Virus record (IMG/VR): IMGVR_UViG_3300035674_000005
Location: 1 to 51,885 of that record
DNA: 51,885 bases
Direction: 5' to 3' (one strand)
Source of the DNA: a virus
Part shown: one piece after another, positions 2,668 to 51,885 of the stretch
How the letters are laid out: the number at the start of each line of letters is the position of its first letter
How positions within the stretch are numbered: the stretch's first letter is position 1
Position numbers and translations under genes: made by a program
Notes under the pieces: generated by a model
Database searches by the model: none
Told to the model about the DNA's origin: nothing
The model's input: only the letters and a program-made list of their open reading frames with translations

Positions 2668-3552
2668 CTAAGCCGCTTGTTCTCGATAGCAGATATTTGC
2701 CACTCGTGAGAATGCTGGCTCTGTGGCGCTGATGTGGGGTATGGGTACTGGGAGCCCTAGTCGAGACATCTTATGTTGTAGATCGGCGGGATTGACTAGG
2801 ACGCGAGGGTTTAGTAGCTTGGGTTTTGCTGCGGAAATTGCCTCGGTCTTTGTCCACAAGCAATAGTCACTATGGGGATGGAGTAGGTCAATGAGGAAGC
2901 TAGCACAGCCCGCAGCCAGGTTGTCTGATTTGTCCCCCGTCTCGGTCTTGAAACGCCAGATGTCGCTTGCCTCAAAGTTGTCGTGAAACTTATAGCGTTG
3001 TATAGCCTTGGTGCCCTTGACGACTTTGTTTCTCATCCACGCATAGACCGCCTCCGTGTCTCGTACTCGTGGAAGATAGCCTTTTGTGTCCATCCAGAGA
3101 ACACAGTCGCTACAGAAGCCCATCCAATCGCTATCGACGGTGGCAAAGTTGAGGGTCGTAAACCTATCTCGCTTGCTACTCCACATCATATATATGAGGG
3201 CAGCGATGTCGTCCGCTTCGTAACCGGCAAAGCGTAGCACGTCCATCTCGGCGTATGCGAGCCCGGTGATCGCAGAGAGGTATGGGTCGGGCATCGATCG
3301 CCCGTGCTTGTAGTCGGCTTGAAATCGGGAGCGCCAATAGGGCTTGCTATCCCCTACCCACACGACGGCTGCTTTGGACGGGCGGTGGGAAGACGGCAAA
3401 AAGCCCAGGTTGTTGACCCAGGCTAAGGCGAGACGTGTATATTGGTCGGCTATCTTGACGTTAGCGGAGCAGTTGAGCGTAATGCCGTCTTTGATAGTGT
3501 GCAGGATGTGGTAGCCGATAACGCTCGTATCGATGACGTAGATGGGGTACAT
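2668..3552 (-). CDS. 5'-3' exonuclease / flap endonuclease (PIN/FEN family)
   Basis: Structure-specific 5' nuclease acting at replication forks, probably removing RNA primers and flaps ahead of the polymerase, which has no 5' nuclease domain of its own. Metal-binding acidic residues appear in family order: D8 in YVIDTS, D68 in WVGDSK, the helical arch YKHGR (81-85), YEADD (111-115), the pair D140/D142 in TVDSD, and TGDKSDN (about 205-211), the helix-hairpin-helix entry. The length of 294 aa is close to T5 exonuclease (291). It lies downstream of the polymerase, with a separate 89-aa gene between. Confidence 0.93.
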   Translation of the reverse strand: MYPIYVIDTSVIGYHILHTIKDGITLNCSANVKIADQYTRLALAWVNNLGFLPSSHRPSKAAVVWVGDSKPYWRSRFQADYKHGRSMPDPYLSAITGLAYAEMDVLRFAGYEADDIAALIYMMWSSKRDRFTTLNFATVDSDWMGFCSDCVLWMDTKGYLPRVRDTEAVYAWMRNKVVKGTKAIQRYKFHDNFEASDIWRFKTETGDKSDNLAAGCASFLIDLLHPHSDYCLWTKTEAISAAKPKLLNPRVLVNPADLQHKMSRLGLPVPIPHISATEPAFSRVANICYREQAA

Positions 3553-3602: not shown

Positions 3603-3872
3603 TTAGACCCAATCGCCCACTCTGTCGAACTCTAACGGTAAGCAGAAGATTTCAAAACCGGGATCATCGATGTGGTGCTTGACTTCGTGTAGTTGTTCTA
3701 AGCCGATTTTCCAGAAGTCGTGGTCGCTGTCTAACCATACTATGTGCCAGGTGCCTTCTAGCCTCATCCAGTAGTAGCCTTCTTCGAGCTGTTTCCAATC
3801 GCCATCGTAACGAGCAATGATCTTCTGTGTTTGTGTGTTCCAATAGTAGTCAAGATTTTCTACGGGGTTCAT
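3603..3872 (-). CDS. Small tryptophan-rich protein of unknown function (89 aa)
   Basis: Rich in tryptophan, tyrosine and acidic residues (DYYWNTQ, EEGYYWMRLEG). Its ATG overlaps the polymerase stop as ATGA (3869-3872), so it should be translated by coupling from the polymerase gene. No domain recognised. A polymerase accessory role is possible from this tight linkage, but nothing in the sequence proves it. Confidence 0.75.
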   Translation of the reverse strand: MNPVENLDYYWNTQTQKIIARYDGDWKQLEEGYYWMRLEGTWHIVWLDSDHDFWKIGLEQLHEVKHHIDDPGFEIFCLPLEFDRVGDWV

Positions 3873-6391
3873 ACTAAGTCCTGTGGTGAGATTGATTTTC
3901 CGTCCGTGGGAAAGCCGTTTGGATTGCTCGGTGTGACCATCCTATCACTAATTTCCTTTCTGTAGCGGCTGTCGATCTCAACGCTGCTGAACCAGGCTAT
4001 TGATTGGGGCATGGTAGAGAATCCTAGGGCAGCGTAACAGTAGGCGCGGGTTTTGATGTGGGCTTCTTGTAGGGCTCGGGCAAAGCGATGGGTGTCTCGA
4101 TTGGCAACCAAGAACTTGACCTCGTCGTGGTAGGTAAGTAGGAGCTGATAGGACAGGCTCTCGCGCTGGCAGATCAGGTCGAGTGCCGTGAGCAGGACAT
4201 GTAGGACATCGACACCGCTTGTTTGGATAGTCCAGTTGGCACGGGTCGTTAGGTAGTCGTTACGAGTATGGGCGTTGTCGAGGCTGTCGGGAATCTTCCA
4301 GCCTAGGATGGGGGAACGAGCACCGTGTTCTGATGCTAGGCGTACCATGGCGTTAAAGACTGCTGATGCTGATCCGCCGTCGAAGTAGCCGTTTATCTTG
4401 CTGCCTTTGAGGGACTTGAGGTAAGTCTGTGCGATGCCTTTGCTGTCCGAAATGTTGCGACCGGATGCGAGGTGGATCATCGTGGCTAGTTTGTCCTCTC
4501 CGCATAGGTAGGCAGAGGCAAAGTTGCAGTTCTTGGCTAGGTCGCGTTTCATGCCGTTTCGGGTTGCCATCAAGGAGTGAGTGTCGGTACCTCGGCTCTT
4601 GTCGCCCACTAAGATGGCTCGGCTGTATTCACAGGCTCCCAGCATCTCCCGGCTTTGGTCGGCAAGCATCGAGGCTAGCCACAGCTCTTCTTGGTCGAAG
4701 TCGGCTCCTACGATGCTGTATCCGGGTGGGGATTTTACCATGCCGCGAAACTCCGAGCCTATCTTGGTCGTGGTGGTCTTGGGGCATACGAGCCAGGTGC
4801 TGTCCTTAGCCCGTCGCGATTGGGTACCCATAACGACCGTCTGGGGGACACACATCAAGACACCGCGACGCTTGACTATGCGTAGGTCTTGACAGCGACC
4901 AGAGAAAGCCTTCCAATTGGTCAGGCTGTATAGCTCTTCGTATAGCTGCGTCAAGTCTAGGGCGGGGATGGTGGTCGTTAGTCGCCCTGTCTTGACGTAG
5001 CTTAGGTAGGTCTGTGCTTTGTCGCAGGTCAAGGGGGTCGACAGGTTCTTCTCTTCGCCCTCTGGATGTGGTAGCGGGATTCCCGAGCGCGTGTACCAGG
5101 TGGTGTCTCGCCACTCGATGTCCTCGCCGTCCCACTGTAGACCCAGTAGGATTGGGGTCAGGCGCTTGCTCATCGTAGCACCGTCGCCCTTAACGTAGTC
5201 GACGTACCACTCGGGCTTTCCTTTGTTCTTGCCACTGCTGAGCTTTCTCCAGGACAGCCGATCGTCTCCGTCCTCGCTATACATCTTGTCTAGGGCGAGG
5301 TTTTCTAGCATCAGACGGTGCTTGGTGATCAGGGTATGATACTGAGTCTCGCAGCGGGACAGGTAGCCGAACCAATCGGGATCGAGGGTGATTAGGGGGT
5401 TAGACATGTGGAGCTGTCCGAGCCAAGATATCGGGGAGCCTACGTAGCGCCGTCGTAGCTGGTGGAACATCTCTAGCATGCAACGTAGGGTTGCGATCAC
5501 GTCTTGGGCACAGTAGGATAGGATGCGATCGATAGCCGGTTGCCATGTGTCCCAGGTAAGCTTCATGATGTCGTCGCGTACGCCTTTCTCTAGGGGCTCG
5601 TTGAACAGGCGCTGATGGATGGCTGCGAGAGAGACTGGGCTGGCGTGCTTGACCCAAAGCGGTGGAAACGGCTTCTTGGATAGCATTTTGTAGGCTGCGA
5701 GTTGTTGGTCGCTGATTCCCCACATTGCAGTCGCCCAGCTCATGCCGTCGAGGAATTGGTTGCCGGACGGACAGACTGTTGCCCCGTCCCAGCGCAGGAA
5801 CTCGGACGCGAGATATTGTCGGTCGTATGAGACGTTCCAGCCTAAGACGACCCGATTGCTAGGGAATGGGATCAGGTCTTCGTTGCTGACCCGTGCCTGC
5901 CAGTCGCGCACCCAGGCAAAGAGGGAGTCGTCGCCCATCGCAACGGCACAGATTGGAGTCCAGTGCTCGCTGTACTTGACCGCCTCTGTGTCTAGGAGCA
6001 TCACATCGGGGAGCTCGTCGGGGCTAATAGGGTACCAGCTCCCCGCCCAGATGTGCCACTTACCCGCGATTAAAGGGGCTCTGGAGGGTGCTTGGGGGAT
6101 AGCTGGTGGAGATAGACACTCTAGGATCTTGGGCTCCTTCTTGCCCCACGTATCTGCCGCTGCTGAGTCGAGCCACTCTTTGACCGGGGTGGGATTGCCG
6201 TCTACGTAGCTGTCGTAGGGTAGATCTATGGGCACCCACTCGCTGGGGTCTTCGATGCCGTAGTCTTTGGGGTTTAGCTCGTCCGGGTTGGGCTCTCGTC
6301 CGAATAGGGCTCTGGATATCTCGGTTGGCAATATCTTCATATATAAGTGTGTTTGGGTGCCGGGCTTGGTGGTGGTGCCGGATAAAGACAC
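3869..6391 (-). CDS. Family A DNA polymerase resembling mitochondrial Pol gamma
   Basis: Replicative polymerase with an active 3'-5' proofreading domain. Exo I is LLDTEAV (D134, E136), Exo II VVLGWNVSYDRQ (181-192) and Exo III YCAQDVIAT (293-301). Polymerase motif A is VGADFDQEEL (D564), motif B RDLAKNCNFASAY (R616, K620, F624, Y628) and motif C YHDEV (D756). The wording of these blocks matches metazoan and fungal Pol gamma far better than E. coli Pol I or T7: compare YCAQDV in Exo III, SPPGYSIVGAD before motif A, KSRGTDTHS after it, WTIQTSGVD before motif C, and MPQSIAWFSSVEID with TPSNPNG at the C-terminus. The region between Exo III and motif A is about 267 residues, shorter than in human Pol gamma. 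I use the GTG at 6391. An internal ATG at 6340 (MKILPTEIS) is an alternative. Confidence 0.95.
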   Translation of the reverse strand: MSLSGTTTKPGTQTHLYMKILPTEISRALFGREPNPDELNPKDYGIEDPSEWVPIDLPYDSYVDGNPTPVKEWLDSAAADTWGKKEPKILECLSPPAIPQAPSRAPLIAGKWHIWAGSWYPISPDELPDVMLLDTEAVKYSEHWTPICAVAMGDDSLFAWVRDWQARVSNEDLIPFPSNRVVLGWNVSYDRQYLASEFLRWDGATVCPSGNQFLDGMSWATAMWGISDQQLAAYKMLSKKPFPPLWVKHASPVSLAAIHQRLFNEPLEKGVRDDIMKLTWDTWQPAIDRILSYCAQDVIATLRCMLEMFHQLRRRYVGSPISWLGQLHMSNPLITLDPDWFGYLSRCETQYHTLITKHRLMLENLALDKMYSEDGDDRLSWRKLSSGKNKGKPEWYVDYVKGDGATMSKRLTPILLGLQWDGEDIEWRDTTWYTRSGIPLPHPEGEEKNLSTPLTCDKAQTYLSYVKTGRLTTTIPALDLTQLYEELYSLTNWKAFSGRCQDLRIVKRRGVLMCVPQTVVMGTQSRRAKDSTWLVCPKTTTTKIGSEFRGMVKSPPGYSIVGADFDQEELWLASMLADQSREMLGACEYSRAILVGDKSRGTDTHSLMATRNGMKRDLAKNCNFASAYLCGEDKLATMIHLASGRNISDSKGIAQTYLKSLKGSKINGYFDGGSASAVFNAMVRLASEHGARSPILGWKIPDSLDNAHTRNDYLTTRANWTIQTSGVDVLHVLLTALDLICQRESLSYQLLLTYHDEVKFLVANRDTHRFARALQEAHIKTRAYCYAALGFSTMPQSIAWFSSVEIDSRYRKEISDRMVTPSNPNGFPTDGKSISPQDLV

Positions 6392-6838: not shown

Positions 6839-8806
6839 ATGGTTGTACAGACAGCGCACCATCGGGAGTGGGTTGAGGGGAGCGGGATCTCTGGGGATAT
6901 AACTGACCTTAATCTTCAGTCTATATCGGGTGGTGTGGCGAGAGAGGTTTTGGGGTGGGGTGAGTATAACGGCGATGGAGAGGATCCGCTTAAGTCGGGG
7001 TGGTGGTGTGAGAGTGTAGAGCCGGAGACTGGTAGGGTATCGGGGTTTGGTCAGTTTAAGCCGGATAAGGTCTTTAAGTTTAAGGGTAAGAAGACGGCGA
7101 AGTATCTCAGCCCCAAGAAACCGACCGAGGCGATATTCTTGCGGATGCCTAATCCTTGTTATTGGCAAGAGGTGCTTGAGGATGTGTCTATACCGCTGTT
7201 TGTGACGGAAGGGGTCAAGAAGGCGGGGGCGATACTAAGCCTCGATCGGGCTGCTGTGGCGCTGGTTGGGGTGTGGAACGGGCAACAGGCTAAGGGTCGA
7301 GAGCTGATTGATACGCTCAAGCCGTTTGCTCAACCGGGTCGAGTGGTTGTGTTTGTGTTTGATGCGGATTTGATATTAAAGACGCAGGTGAGGGATGCAC
7401 TGGACAATCTAGCCAGCCTGATGATAGGGCGCGGGTGTCCGTGCAGGATTACGACGTGGGATATACGGGAGGGGAAGGGTATTGATGATGTGCTGGTTCA
7501 TCGAGGTGCGGATAGGGTACGTGAGATACTCGATGCGGGGCTCAGCTTAGACGAGTGGCGCAAAACGGGAACGGGAGAGCTGGTTGATCCCCAGACAGCA
7601 CAGGGTAAGATTTGGAACTATGTGACGCATGGGATGGCTAATGATCTGGAGATAGATGAGTTTAGCCTGGAGTATCGGTCGAGGGGGTTGCCGCTCGTTA
7701 TTCCCGCGCTACAGGCTCGTATAGCGGAGTCGATTGGGATGGATGTGCCGAAAAGCTACCTGATTGAGACGGTGGATTATTACGCCAAGCAGCATCCGTA
7801 TAGTGATGTGCGCGAGTACTTGAAGAATTGTGCGGCGATGTATGGGCAGAGTCGAGGGTACATTCAGGCGCTGATTGATGTGATGGGATTGGTGCCGGAT
7901 ATAGAGAAGCTGTTGATGTTTAAGTGGTTGATCGCGGCGGTTGCACGGGCGATGATGCCGGGGTGCAAATTTGATAGTGTGTTGATTCAGAAGGGTCGGG
8001 AGGGGCTCGGAAAGACGAGGTTGATGCAGATATTGGCGGGGGCTAATCGCTTCACTGAGATGAGCTTGGAGTCGGGAAACAAGGATCAGCTTCAGATAGC
8101 GAAGGCGAATTGGATTATCGAGCTGGGTGAGATAGAGTCTACGTTTAGACGGTCGGACATTAGCCACCTTAAGATGTTCATTACGCAGACACAGGATGAG
8201 TTCAGGGTGCCGTATGGGAGTAGGTCGGAGAAGTTTCCGAGACACTTTCTCTTCTGTGGTAGTACGAACAGTGACACGGTGATTACGGATCCGGATGGGG
8301 TTAGGCGGTGGTGGGTCGTACAGCCAACCAAGCGCTTTGATCTGGAGTGGGTGGAGCGAAATCGGGACAGGATATGGGCGGAGGCGTATTGGTACTTTGA
8401 GAACGCGGATATAAAGCTGTATTTGACGGACGAGGAGAATGAGGCGTTCGTACAGAGTGTCAAGCCCCATAGGAAGGTTGGGAAGTTCTATGACGGGCTA
8501 GAGAAGATAATGGACAAGCTGATGAAAGGCTCGTTTAGGCTCGTGGATGTGCTAGAGACGTTTCACATCTATCCGGGTATGAAGGACTACGATCGCGACC
8601 TACTTGCCTTAGCCAGTGACCTTAAGCTATTGGGTTTCGTTGCTGAGGGTAAACAGAGGCGAATTAACGGGGTCAAAGCTAAGTGGTGGAATCATAGTAG
8701 CACTCTAATTATTGAGGCGGCTGAAGACGAGGAACCAAGCAGTCCTTTGCTCCTGCCTTATAACGGGAACCAAACCAGACCTCAACTACCGCCCCAAAAC
8801 GGCTAG
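6839..8806 (+). CDS. Primase-helicase: DUF3854 (Toprim-like) plus VirE/SF3-type ATPase
   Basis: Likely primes and unwinds at the phage origin. The N-terminal domain (about 45-240) is DUF3854 with a Toprim-like core: glutamate in FVTEGVKKAG (E124) and the metal-binding pair in VFVFDADL (D175, D177). The C-terminal domain (about 370-510) is a virulence-associated-E type ATPase. It has Walker A GREGLGKT (386-393), an acidic WIIELGEIE segment, a sensor-like LFCGSTN and an arginine-rich GVRRWWVVQP. A short winged-helix-like tail follows (about 540-640). Start at ATG 6839 with a GAGGGATGAG ribosome site. The putative origin begins directly after its stop, as in many phages where the initiator gene abuts the origin. 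Confidence 0.88.
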   Translation: MVVQTAHHREWVEGSGISGDITDLNLQSISGGVAREVLGWGEYNGDGEDPLKSGWWCESVEPETGRVSGFGQFKPDKVFKFKGKKTAKYLSPKKPTEAIFLRMPNPCYWQEVLEDVSIPLFVTEGVKKAGAILSLDRAAVALVGVWNGQQAKGRELIDTLKPFAQPGRVVVFVFDADLILKTQVRDALDNLASLMIGRGCPCRITTWDIREGKGIDDVLVHRGADRVREILDAGLSLDEWRKTGTGELVDPQTAQGKIWNYVTHGMANDLEIDEFSLEYRSRGLPLVIPALQARIAESIGMDVPKSYLIETVDYYAKQHPYSDVREYLKNCAAMYGQSRGYIQALIDVMGLVPDIEKLLMFKWLIAAVARAMMPGCKFDSVLIQKGREGLGKTRLMQILAGANRFTEMSLESGNKDQLQIAKANWIIELGEIESTFRRSDISHLKMFITQTQDEFRVPYGSRSEKFPRHFLFCGSTNSDTVITDPDGVRRWWVVQPTKRFDLEWVERNRDRIWAEAYWYFENADIKLYLTDEENEAFVQSVKPHRKVGKFYDGLEKIMDKLMKGSFRLVDVLETFHIYPGMKDYDRDLLALASDLKLLGFVAEGKQRRINGVKAKWWNHSSTLIIEAAEDEEPSSPLLLPYNGNQTRPQLPPQNG

Positions 8807-9144: not shown

Positions 9145-9172
9145 TAAGGTGTCAATAAGGAAATATCCACAA

Positions 9173-9997
9173 ATGACGTACTCAACAATCTTTGACCATA
9201 TAGACTTTGAACAGGATGCTATTCATGCGGGTTTCAATAGAAGGAAATACCCCACTGATTACGAGCCATTTCGCAACCCAGATAGTTTCAAGGAGTTGTG
9301 TGACTCTAAGAAAGGTATCAAGCCATTTGCCTTTCTCATAAATCGGTTGCAGTTGCCTGACCATCCGGCGTACATAATGGAGCTTAGCAATAGTGAGGTC
9401 ACTAGTATTGAAGATGAGGTTTTACCCCGGCGTATCAACCTAGTTTTTAAGCAGTTTGGAGAGCGCCTGGTACGGATAAAAGAGCCTGCCAATATACCTT
9501 TGAAGCGGCGAGTCTACTTCACTGCCGACCTACCCGTATTAGACAATGCTCTCATGTTAACTGCTCAAAAAGCCCGTAGACCAACCGCCGTCTTCTCCGC
9601 TTGGCTTAAACCTCAGGCAGTGAATAAAGACCATGAGGATGGTGTAACTCCGGAGCGATTTGCTGTTTTGATGGTTAACAGTATCCTAAAAGCCATGTAT
9701 TTCTGGGATGAAGAGGTGTTGGATGGGGTGCTGAGTGGTAAGCCCTCCTATGCGGCAGAACGTGACATACTTTACGATATCTGGGTAGAGAAAAGATACA
9801 AGCATCGGTTAGAAGGCTACAGGAATGATGATTTTGACCGCTTCTTGAACGACAACTTGCGGAACCTTTTCCACCAGCACGATAGGTACATGAGAAACAA
9901 CTATCTCTTTGATGCCCTCGACCGTTTCTATAAGCTGCATGAGGAGCCTTTCTTAGAGCGTCAGAGGCAAATCGAGCAACTGGTTAGAACTTTCTAG
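9173..9997 (+). CDS. Protein of unknown function (274 aa)
   Basis: Soluble, charged and aromatic-rich protein, MTYSTIFDHIDFEQ at the start and a helical C-terminal third (FLNDNLRNLFHQHDRY). No signal peptide, membrane segment or recognisable domain. The ATG at 9173 is chosen because the strong promoter puts the RNA start near 9151, and AAGGA lies upstream. It is the first gene after the origin with its own consensus host-type promoter, so early expression is likely. A host-takeover role is possible but not shown by sequence. Confidence 0.85.
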   Translation: MTYSTIFDHIDFEQDAIHAGFNRRKYPTDYEPFRNPDSFKELCDSKKGIKPFAFLINRLQLPDHPAYIMELSNSEVTSIEDEVLPRRINLVFKQFGERLVRIKEPANIPLKRRVYFTADLPVLDNALMLTAQKARRPTAVFSAWLKPQAVNKDHEDGVTPERFAVLMVNSILKAMYFWDEEVLDGVLSGKPSYAAERDILYDIWVEKRYKHRLEGYRNDDFDRFLNDNLRNLFHQHDRYMRNNYLFDALDRFYKLHEEPFLERQRQIEQLVRTF

Positions 9998-16388: not shown

Positions 16389-16425
16389 GACCGGAACCAT
16401 ACGATAATAGAGATAGGAGGTGATC

Positions 16426-16902
16426 ATGGCTAAACCAAAGTTTACATTCACGATGGATTTGCAACCGGCAGCCGTACCGCACCTGCTATACGGCAAGCTC
16501 AAGTTTGATGATGGATGCGGCAAAGGTGTGGTGTTCGAGGCTACATCAGGACAGCCCAGACATCAGTATCCTAAGGCTTGGTTGACTCCTCGTAAAGGAT
16601 GCTTACCGCCGACTCAGGTGATCAAGCAGCTCTATACGGTCAACACACAGGCGTTGTTTATGCCCAATACGCAGGGGGTCGGTGGCGACTTCTTTGCTAT
16701 TGCTCCGTTCTCTGTGGATCTTGGGGCGGTCAATCGGGGCGACTTTGGCATCCACCTCGATAGCAACTACCCACAATCGCCCGGTTCAGCAGGGTGCATT
16801 GTGATCAGGAACAAGCAGCACTTTCAACAGGTGCGCGACTTGATGAAGCGGCTCAACAGCCAGCGTATCAAGTCAGTCGATTTAGAAGTTATTTACGTTT
16901 AG
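16426..16902 (+). CDS. L,D-transpeptidase-like (YkuD/DUF2778-type) protein
   Basis: The catalytic signature is near the C-terminus: FGIHLDSN with the histidine (about 106-113), then GSAGCIVI with the cysteine (about 120-127), as in the HxxD...SxGC motif of YkuD and DUF2778 enzymes that make or cut peptidoglycan cross-links. No signal peptide is present. AGGAGG five bases upstream fixes the ATG at 16426. It precedes the GH5 gene and may act on host wall peptides, either during entry or lysis. Motif-level similarity only. Confidence 0.65.
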   Translation: MAKPKFTFTMDLQPAAVPHLLYGKLKFDDGCGKGVVFEATSGQPRHQYPKAWLTPRKGCLPPTQVIKQLYTVNTQALFMPNTQGVGGDFFAIAPFSVDLGAVNRGDFGIHLDSNYPQSPGSAGCIVIRNKQHFQQVRDLMKRLNSQRIKSVDLEVIYV

Positions 16903-29791: not shown

Positions 29792-30307
29792 ATGAATGTA
29801 GTTAGTGTTGGGGCTAGTTTATTAGTAGGGCTGTTTGGAGTCTCGGGTTGGGGGATATTGTCTCAGCATCCTGTCCCCGATAAGGCGTTGGTGACTGGGA
29901 GTCTTGCACGGGTTATCGATGGCGATACGGTACATATAACAGAGGGCGCTACGGGATACCGGGTCAGGCTGGCGTGTATCGATGCTCCCGAGAAGAATCA
30001 CCTTCCATACGGGGCTGCTGCAACCCGTGCTCTTAAGGCTATCGCGGGCAAACAGGTTACCGTCAAGATACTCGATAAGCCAGATCGCTACGGTAGAGAG
30101 ATCGGAGAGCTGTATACGAGCAAGGGTGTTAACGTCAACTTAGAGATGGTGCGACAAGGTTTCGCTTTCGTCTATCCTAAGTACCTAGATACGTGCAAGA
30201 CCAACAAGAAGGCTTATCTTGATGCTCAGGTTACAGCGCACGACAACAAGATAGGATTCCACGCGATAGAAGACTTTATCATGCCGTGGGATTGGAGAAA
30301 GAAGTAA
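29792..30307 (+). CDS. Thermonuclease (staphylococcal nuclease family), exported or anchored
   Basis: Calcium-dependent nuclease fold: RVIDGDTVHI (about 41-50), RLACIDAPE with the catalytic arginine and glutamate, YGAAATRALKAIAG, and DRYGREIGELY with the second arginine. The N-terminal hydrophobic segment (SVGASLLVGLFGVSGWGI) looks like a signal peptide or membrane anchor. Its place between MuF and scaffold genes is shared with other phages that carry nuclease insertions in the head module. It may degrade host DNA in the envelope or affect competing DNA. Confidence 0.9.
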   Translation: MNVVSVGASLLVGLFGVSGWGILSQHPVPDKALVTGSLARVIDGDTVHITEGATGYRVRLACIDAPEKNHLPYGAAATRALKAIAGKQVTVKILDKPDRYGREIGELYTSKGVNVNLEMVRQGFAFVYPKYLDTCKTNKKAYLDAQVTAHDNKIGFHAIEDFIMPWDWRKK

Positions 30308-50747: not shown

Positions 50748-51885
50748 TCATCGCACCGGACAGCCACCCTTAGCACAATCGCTATCTACGTCCCATTCCT
50801 CTCCCGTCTCAAACGAGGCGATCAAGGCTGCGAAGTCATCTTCCTCGATCTTTCCGTGCTGGGTTTGCCACAGTAGATATTGCTTCTCTGTGATCTCCTC
50901 GTAGACCATCTGAGGATATGGTGAGAAGACAGGCAGGAACGCGATACCTACATAGAACAACCAGTTTTCTACTAGCCAGCGAGCTATCTCAGGGATCTCA
51001 GCGGGGGTGAACGTCACTGTGATGCTGGTGTTGTGCTCTGACCAAAATATCATGCTATCTCGGTAGCGATTAAGCTGGGATATCGCTGGCTCTTGGGTAC
51101 TGGCTATCTTGGCATTGCTCTTGACGGCGAACGTAAAGACCTTAGTCCGGCAAATGTCCCACTGTAGATAGGCAGACGAGTCGGGATCCTCGGGAGGCAC
51201 ATAGACACCGATGCGCTCTAGGGACTTGACCCCCTCTATGTACTTGTCTTCCTCTTCCTTGATTGGCAGCCCTTTGTCGCGTTTGTAGTTGATGGTCGCC
51301 AGCAGGTTGTCAAAATAGTCCTTGCCTTGTCCGTTCTCTGGACTGGGCTTGAACCCTAAGACAGTCAAGGCTTTGGCAACCGGATCATGCTTGCTGACCC
51401 TAATCCGGCGATAGTAGTAGGGCGCGTAGTCCCTGTGTATGCCAGCCGATACGCCAGGGAGCAGCGACATAGTACCCGATGGCTTGATACAGGTCGCTAG
51501 CTTGGCTCGGGGGATTCCCATAGCCTTGTGATAATCGTCCGCTGCTTGCCGTACGACATGGTGGCAGGTGGCTAGTAGTACGTTGTCGCTCTCGATGCCT
51601 AGTAGATCAAAGGCTGTCATCACGCCCGTTAAAGAGACTCCTAAGAGCCTGTCCTCGGACTGGACTTGGTGCCAGTTGCGATCCTTGATCTCGACGTTGG
51701 TGATACGGGAGCAGTGTCTGGTAGCGAGGATGAGTGAGTGTCGTAGCTGTATCTCGTCTAGTCGATAGCCGCCATCTACCTTATTGACATGGGCTGATAG
51801 TGGTACCTCGGCTAGGTTGCATAGTCCTCGGTCGCGCAGTAGTATCTCAGCACAGGGGTTTACGCCCTCAAAGTCCGGTCGTCGC
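50748..51885 (-). CDS. Class II ribonucleotide reductase, C-terminal part
   Basis: Continuation of the gene at 1-1221. Bases 51702-51885 repeat 1-184, so the unique C-terminal portion is 50748-51701. CIKPSGTMSLLPGVSAGIHR is the conserved phosphate- and substrate-binding stretch, and YAPYYYRRIRVSKHDP follows, as in class II enzymes. The last residues, DSDCAKGGCPVR, carry the swinging redox cysteines (C716 and C721 of the joined protein), with the same spacing as in the Lactobacillus enzyme. The stop precedes the XRE regulator by 60 bases. Confidence 0.95.
   Translation of the reverse strand, partial: RRPDFEGVNPCAEILLRDRGLCNLAEVPLSAHVNKVDGGYRLDEIQLRHSLILATRHCSRITNVEIKDRNWHQVQSEDRLLGVSLTGVMTAFDLLGIESDNVLLATCHHVVRQAADDYHKAMGIPRAKLATCIKPSGTMSLLPGVSAGIHRDYAPYYYRRIRVSKHDPVAKALTVLGFKPSPENGQGKDYFDNLLATINYKRDKGLPIKEEEDKYIEGVKSLERIGVYVPPEDPDSSAYLQWDICRTKVFTFAVKSNAKIASTQEPAISQLNRYRDSMIFWSEHNTSITVTFTPAEIPEIARWLVENWLFYVGIAFLPVFSPYPQMVYEEITEKQYLLWQTQHGKIEEDDFAALIASFETGEEWDVDSDCAKGGCPVR
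51702..51885. repeat. Terminal direct repeat, right copy
   Basis: Copy of 1-184 with T instead of C at the position equivalent to 58. See the left copy for interpretation. Confidence 0.95.

Follow-up and report, generated by a model that had tools for sequence, protein, structure and literature searches.

A deep, divergent Pol gamma among the phage lineages nearest to the mitochondrial DNA polymerase

The mitochondrial DNA polymerase gamma (POLG) has, to our knowledge, no ancestor in bacteria, and we know of no phage enzymes placed near the eukaryotic branch before, nor of a rooted tree with enough phages in it. A phage source of POLG was reportedly proposed by Filee et al. in 2002 and is said to have been proposed also by Chan et al. 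in 2011. Cyanophage Pol gammas are on record since 2011, when those of A-HIS1 and A-HIS2 were described (Chan et al., as quoted in PMC7156551 and PMC3914683). Those of S-TIM5, S-CBWM1 and Mic1 came later, and according to the Mic1 paper cyanophages were the only known source of homologues (PMC7156551); the inference of a cyanophage origin was already drawn in a 2014 paper (PMC3914683).

The window (the whole stretch of DNA analysed, 51,885 nucleotides of an IMG/VR virus record) encodes a Pol gamma-type family A DNA polymerase with a 3'-5' exonuclease at positions 3869-6391, on the minus strand. Its ORF has a GTG start and gives 840 residues, whereas an alternative in-frame ATG at codon 18 (nt 6340) would give 823; residues 1-16 are disordered in the AlphaFold model. 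Pfam detects PF18136 (DNApol_Exo, the exonuclease of mitochondrial polymerases; E 1.8e-24, residues 124-310) and PF00476 (DNA_pol_A; E 5e-16), and the protein matches PHROG 22619 ("DNA polymerase") at 8e-97, against 6e-20 for PHROG 17, the general phage polymerase family. When all PDB sequences were searched with phmmer, the top 14 matches were Pol gammas (E 2e-69 to 4e-64) and the best one after them was a Pol I, at E 0.11. The sequence-only reading, which had likened the protein to Pol gamma rather than to Pol I or T7, is thus borne out, the DNA polymerase I matches lying at E values of at least 0.11.

Four regions follow one another on the minus strand: an N-terminal domain (residues 15-98; 6098-6349), delimited by the ranges of the structural alignments (15-840 with POLG, about 98-815 with Pol I); the 3'-5' exonuclease domain (residues 124-310; 5462-6022), supported by PF18136 and the motif alignment; a spacer or thumb region (residues 311-503; 4883-5461), set by the spacer lengths; and the polymerase domain (residues 504-840; 3872-4882), which holds motifs A, B and C and a POLG-type C-terminal tail, and which is 37.9% identical to that of yeast MIP1 and 37.0% to that of L009, a phage relative discussed below. 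By alignment, motif A (VGADFDQEELW; 4679-4711) carries the catalytic D564 and E569, corresponding to human D890 and E895; motif B (KRDLAKNCNFASAYLCGE; 4496-4549) carries R616, K620, F624 (human Y951) and Y628 (human Y955); and motif C (LLTYHDEVKF; 4112-4141) carries the catalytic D756. The polymerase catalytic residues are therefore complete (D564/E569, R616/K620/Y628 and D756), and all the proofreading-site residues are kept as well (D134/E136 in Exo I, N186/D190 in Exo II, Y293/D297 in Exo III). Every one of the blocks that had been picked out by eye as typical of Pol gamma is present, namely YCAQDV (residues 293-298), PPGYSIVGAD (555-564), KSRGTDTHS (598-606), IQTSGVD (722-728), MPQSIAWFSSVEID and TPSNPNG, and they align onto the Exo III, motif A, KSRGTDLHS, QSS and tail blocks of human and yeast Pol gamma, a resemblance that, by the E values of the PDB search, is far beyond chance. 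This confirms the protein as a complete Pol gamma-family DNA polymerase.

The predicted structure agrees with this assignment. Using an alignment of 25 phage gammas with no eukaryotic sequence in it, AlphaFold gave a model with a pLDDT of 81.7 and a pTM of 0.84 (prediction without an alignment, at pLDDT 32, was unusable). The first 36 PDB rows that Foldseek returned for this model are human, mouse or yeast Pol gamma, with human POLG as the best (TM 0.84), whereas the best Klenow row among the matches listed reaches a TM of 0.45; T7 gp5 does not occur among the 50 rows listed, an absence to which we attach no weight. With VIA-align, residues 15-840 of the model match human POLG 73-1224 (Z 38.8, 789 residues aligned), so that the comparison proposed along with the sequence-only reading yields a match over the whole length, against Z 19.7 for the Pol I of phage G20c and about 19 for Taq, in alignments that start near residue 98 or later. 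Klenow, Taq and Pol theta resemble the model over the exo-pol core only and, since the Pol I-type alignments start near residue 98 and that of POLG at residue 15, the N-terminal domain of POLG is also present in the window polymerase. The likeness in fold counts as support rather than as independent proof, because POLG structures were in the training set of AlphaFold.

The polymerase-domain tree is a rooted maximum likelihood tree (IQ-TREE, LG+C20 PMSF) of 37 rows: the window polymerase, 16 other phage gammas, three POLGs, T7, E. coli Pol I and 15 other phage polymerases. Eukaryotes enter the trees as fragments of the human, mouse and yeast enzymes that stem from PDB alignments (the chain POLG_fungal9c51 is yeast MIP1, according to the fold-search titles), the organellar polymerases of plants and protists (POP) being left out. 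A gamma clade that includes the window polymerase is separated from T7, Pol I and the 15 other phage polymerases with 100/100 support in this tree, and with 100/100 or 100/99 over all the rooted trees, which makes the family placement firm. Nowhere does the protein branch with T7-like or Pol I clades, the outcome that had been named as telling against a Pol gamma: it lies outside the T7 gp5 clade (100/100), and neither clustering nor fold comparison puts it with the bacterial Pol I class. Within the gamma clade, it falls in the subclade of POLG.

That subclade recurs under different treatments. In the polymerase-domain tree, POLG joins the Mic1-type enzymes at 96/94, and the window polymerase and L009 join both at 87/93. 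When the exonuclease and polymerase domains are combined, with an outgroup, the respective values are 92/92 and 91/87, and the window polymerase pairs with L009 at 99/100; the L-INS-i alignment gives 90/86 for POLG with Mic1 and 91/93 for the subclade of all four, and the genafpair alignment 93/93 for the former and 90/80 for the subclade with the window polymerase. The sister of POLG is the Mic1-type phages in all six rooted runs, and POLG therefore appears nested among phage enzymes, which is likely but not settled. In the approximately unbiased (AU) tests, whose p values are nominal and refer to single tests, a clade of the window polymerase and POLG alone was rejected (p 0.018, polymerase domain). 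On balance, we incline towards an origin of animal and fungal POLG inside the phage Pol gammas, with the Mic1-type cyanophage enzyme as its sister and the window polymerase and L009 as the next branch out.

A tentative alternative, to which we give clearly less weight, is that POLG shares a common ancestor with the phage gammas but branches as sister to them as a whole, in which case a transfer from eukaryote to phage would be conceivable and the phage lineages, that of the window included, would be silent on the donor group. Consistent with it, the monophyly of the phages to the exclusion of POLG is not rejected with the polymerase domain only (AU p 0.134), several deep forks of the gamma clade have support below 90 and the eukaryotes sampled are few. 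Nonetheless, the same monophyly is rejected once the exonuclease domain is added (p 0.030), POLG and the Mic1-type enzymes stay together in six of six rooted trees with 90-96% bootstrap, and every basal branch within the gamma clade belongs to a phage. Less probable again is that the window polymerase is a basal phage gamma drawn towards POLG and Mic1 by long-branch attraction: the end branches of the window polymerase and L009 are indeed very long, with a long-branch warning, and a root between these two and the rest is not rejected (AU p 0.14). Against such an artefact, the window polymerase stays with POLG and Mic1 at 96/98 when L009 is removed (POLG with Mic1 96/94, genafpair alignment), as does L009, at 85/65, when the window polymerase is removed (POLG with Mic1 96/90); furthermore, the branches of POLG and of the Mic1-type enzymes are not long, and the best identities (37-40%) are spread over L018, L009 and yeast POLG. 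Finally, the possibility of a T7-like or Pol I-like phage polymerase of the usual sort, with Pol gamma motifs acquired by convergence, can practically be dismissed, as the DNA_pol_A match and the weak PHROG 17 match in its favour are common to all family A enzymes, while the PDB search (Pol gamma and Pol I E-values more than 60 orders of magnitude apart), the 100/100 split in the polymerase-domain tree and the fold search, with the POLG-specific N-terminal domain and tail present in the protein, refute it.

The window polymerase is among the phage enzymes that branch nearest to the mitochondrial polymerase, and this placement supports a viral origin of the latter. The suggestion that this lineage bears on the phage origin of POLG holds in so far as it falls in a subclade with the animal and yeast enzymes; the link itself is not new. 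Nor is the polymerase of a new kind, given the cyanophage Pol gammas known since 2011 and the 120 IMG/VR stretches in which a profile search of viral contigs found a relative encoded; it is rather a deep and divergent addition to the known phage Pol gammas. A single-protein search of the viral contigs with the window polymerase gave no match, a profile being needed to reach its relatives, and a further scan for closer relatives of the window polymerase and L009 returned L009 only. Among 50,697 phage records, tblastn found Pol gamma in 11, and no Pol gamma was found in the plasmid search. The sole match in a genome contig, L089 (CALGUV010000157.1, from a Microbacteriaceae MAG), runs out within a cyanophage-like gamma gene, of which it has the N-terminal part, and its other ORFs look phage-like (metallophosphatases, an RNA-ligase-like protein); it is probably a virus contig mis-binned into a bacterial MAG, and was for this reason rejected as a sign of a non-cyanobacterial host. 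As a separate observation, the Mic1-type Pol gamma genes are broken at motif A, after GADVDS, in L104 (10120-10423), in L003 (near 7570-7870) and in L106 (near 4290-5140). The interruption in L104 is a group I intron (Rfam RF00028, E 4e-16) and that in L106 a longer insertion at the same site, and the relatives in L108 and L109 come in at least three separated pieces, which suggests several introns or inteins in one gene.

How does the enzyme relate to the metazoan holoenzyme? In human POLG, the spacer between Exo III and motif A houses the AID, which binds POLG2, while monomeric yeast MIP1 has a shorter spacer and functions without an accessory subunit (PMC4362329). In the window polymerase, this spacer comprises exactly the 267 residues (D297 to D564) that had been estimated beforehand, the minimum among 91 phage gammas (median 300, range across the phage members 267-336), as compared with 346 in MIP1 and 491 in human POLG. 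It is 224 residues shorter than the human spacer and lacks most of the length in which human POLG accommodates its accessory-binding part. Of the features of the metazoan holoenzyme, neither the AID nor a POLG2-type subunit was encountered in the window, and no class II aaRS-like (POLG2-type) domain was found in the window ORFs scanned by Pfam, a scan that left out part of the small ORFs. The length thus agrees with the proposed lack of a POLG2-type binding region; this is not peculiar to the window polymerase, however, since MIP1 works alone and all the phage members have spacers of 267-336 residues, and outside animals a polymerase without the AID is probably the rule.

Another difference from the human enzyme lies in motif B, where the position of human Y951 is occupied by Phe624. 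Of 93 aligned rows, 52 have Tyr at this position and 41 have Phe, and the variability of this tyrosine among cyanophages was noted in the Mic1 paper (PMC7156551). By analogy with human POLG, in which the Y951F change keeps activity and nearly abolishes the use of ddNTPs (PMC5702650), the window polymerase should discriminate strongly against ddNTPs.

The neighbouring genes are consistent with a role in replication. An 89-residue ORF on the same strand (3603-3872), with no Pfam or PHROGs match, is probably co-translated with the polymerase, because its ATG overlaps the polymerase stop codon (ATGA). Beyond it, also on the minus strand, lies a 5'-3' exonuclease or flap endonuclease (2668-3552; Pfam 5_3_exonuc_N, E 3.6e-9), whose relatives, by tblastn against the 50,697 phage records, occur in seven cyanophage records only (Mic1, five of the S-TIM type and A-HIS1), all of them with Pol gamma; it is also found in L009 and L018. 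This distribution suggests that flap endonuclease and Pol gamma form a co-inherited module. Divergent from the polymerase, a gene on the plus strand (6839-8806) encodes, according to Pfam, a DUF3854 plus VapE-like primase/helicase. Relatives over nearly its whole length occur on plasmids of Phormidium and Microcystis, and many Nostoc plasmids carry partial ones. Near these genes, the ORFs at 1487-2584 (365 residues) and 9149-9997 (282 residues) have no Pfam or PHROGs match; the former, which lies 3' of the flap endonuclease gene and shares its strand, could encode a replication accessory or DNA-binding protein. An L,D-transpeptidase-like protein (16420-16902, plus strand) is also present in Mic1-type phages and is annotated as L,D-transpeptidase in Mic1. 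The portal is nearest to those of the cyanophages S-CBS2 and PSS2, while TerL is nearest to proteobacterial phages and the MCP matches are mixed. A cyanobacterial host is likely, on the indirect evidence of the cyanophage or cyanobacterial relatives of the flap endonuclease, the primase/helicase, the portal and the L,D-transpeptidase.

The window ends, 1-184 and 51702-51885, repeat each other over 184 bases with one mismatch, and a ribonucleotide reductase gene on the minus strand appears to span the joint (1-1269 plus 50748-51885), so the record, classed as linear, probably represents one whole genome, circularised or permuted, with a length of about 51.7 kb. There are no Rfam matches and no tRNA in the window. 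As observations apart, its load of carbohydrate-acting genes is unusual for a phage (10274-12992, 16794-18398 and 23133-27035; DUF4874/DUF4832, a polysaccharide lyase, a GH5 cellulase with a malectin domain and a malectin-domain protein of 1300 residues), and the head gene cluster includes a gene (29792-30307) for a protein that resembles staphylococcal nuclease and has a hydrophobic stretch at its N terminus.

Taken as a whole, we infer that the gene encodes the replicative Pol gamma of a tailed phage with a genome of about 51.7 kb, from the phage polymerase family out of which the mitochondrial enzyme most likely came, a reading that we hold with a probability of about 0.88. The enzyme would act as a single-chain replicase with its own proofreading and no accessory subunit: the DUF3854/VapE-like protein would prime and unwind, the polymerase would extend the primers and the separate flap endonuclease would remove them. 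The window polymerase and the mitochondrial polymerase of animals and fungi would then descend from one phage polymerase family. With the window, a deep, intron-free and complete phage member is added to the subclade of POLG; with it included, POLG is nested among phages in all our rooted trees, and the direction of transfer becomes testable once more eukaryotes are sampled. If POLG did arise there, the window/L009 and Mic1-type enzymes would be the only two known phage groups bracketing the donor of the mitochondrial polymerase, and POLG would not share the T7-like source from which the other parts of the mitochondrial replisome are assumed to derive. Moreover, among the natural single-chain Pol gammas considered here this one, at 840 residues, is the smallest, which, together with Phe at the Y951 position, makes it a useful enzyme for structural and mechanistic work.

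Among the known systems, T7 gp5 and Klenow/Pol I share with the window polymerase the family A exo-pol core; they lack the N-terminal domain and tail blocks of POLG, form a separate clade (100/100) and, for Klenow, reach a TM of about 0.45. The Pol gammas of the Acaryochloris phages A-HIS1 and A-HIS2 and the Synechococcus phages S-TIM5 and S-CBWM1 are 24-26% identical to it over 85-97% of its length, and belong to separate clades, further from POLG; those of A-HIS and S-CBWM1 have inserts near motif B. The nearest phage relative, L009 (IMGVR_UViG_3300035670_000442; 32-37% identical), for which no close relatives were found, also has a flap endonuclease nearby, and differs in its Tyr at the Y951 position and its spacer of 291 residues; its branch is long. 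The Mic1 polymerase (Mic1_86/85, PMC7156551) is alike in its Pol gamma domains, its intact motifs, its cyanophage setting and its subclade with POLG, and Mic1 shares with the window the flap endonuclease relative (29.5% identical) and the L,D-transpeptidase-like gene. Its polymerase differs in being interrupted by an intron at motif A (group I in the near-copy L104), Tyr at the Y951 position and a 309-residue spacer, and its genome measures 92.6 kb. Human POLG and yeast MIP1, in turn, have in common with the window polymerase the N-terminal domain, the DEDDy exonuclease, motifs A to C, the KSRGTD and TPSNP blocks and the fold over the whole length, and differ in their longer spacers, in the human Tyr951 replaced here by Phe and, for the 1240-residue MIP1 chain, in a C-terminal extension missing from the window polymerase, which is itself encoded by a phage.
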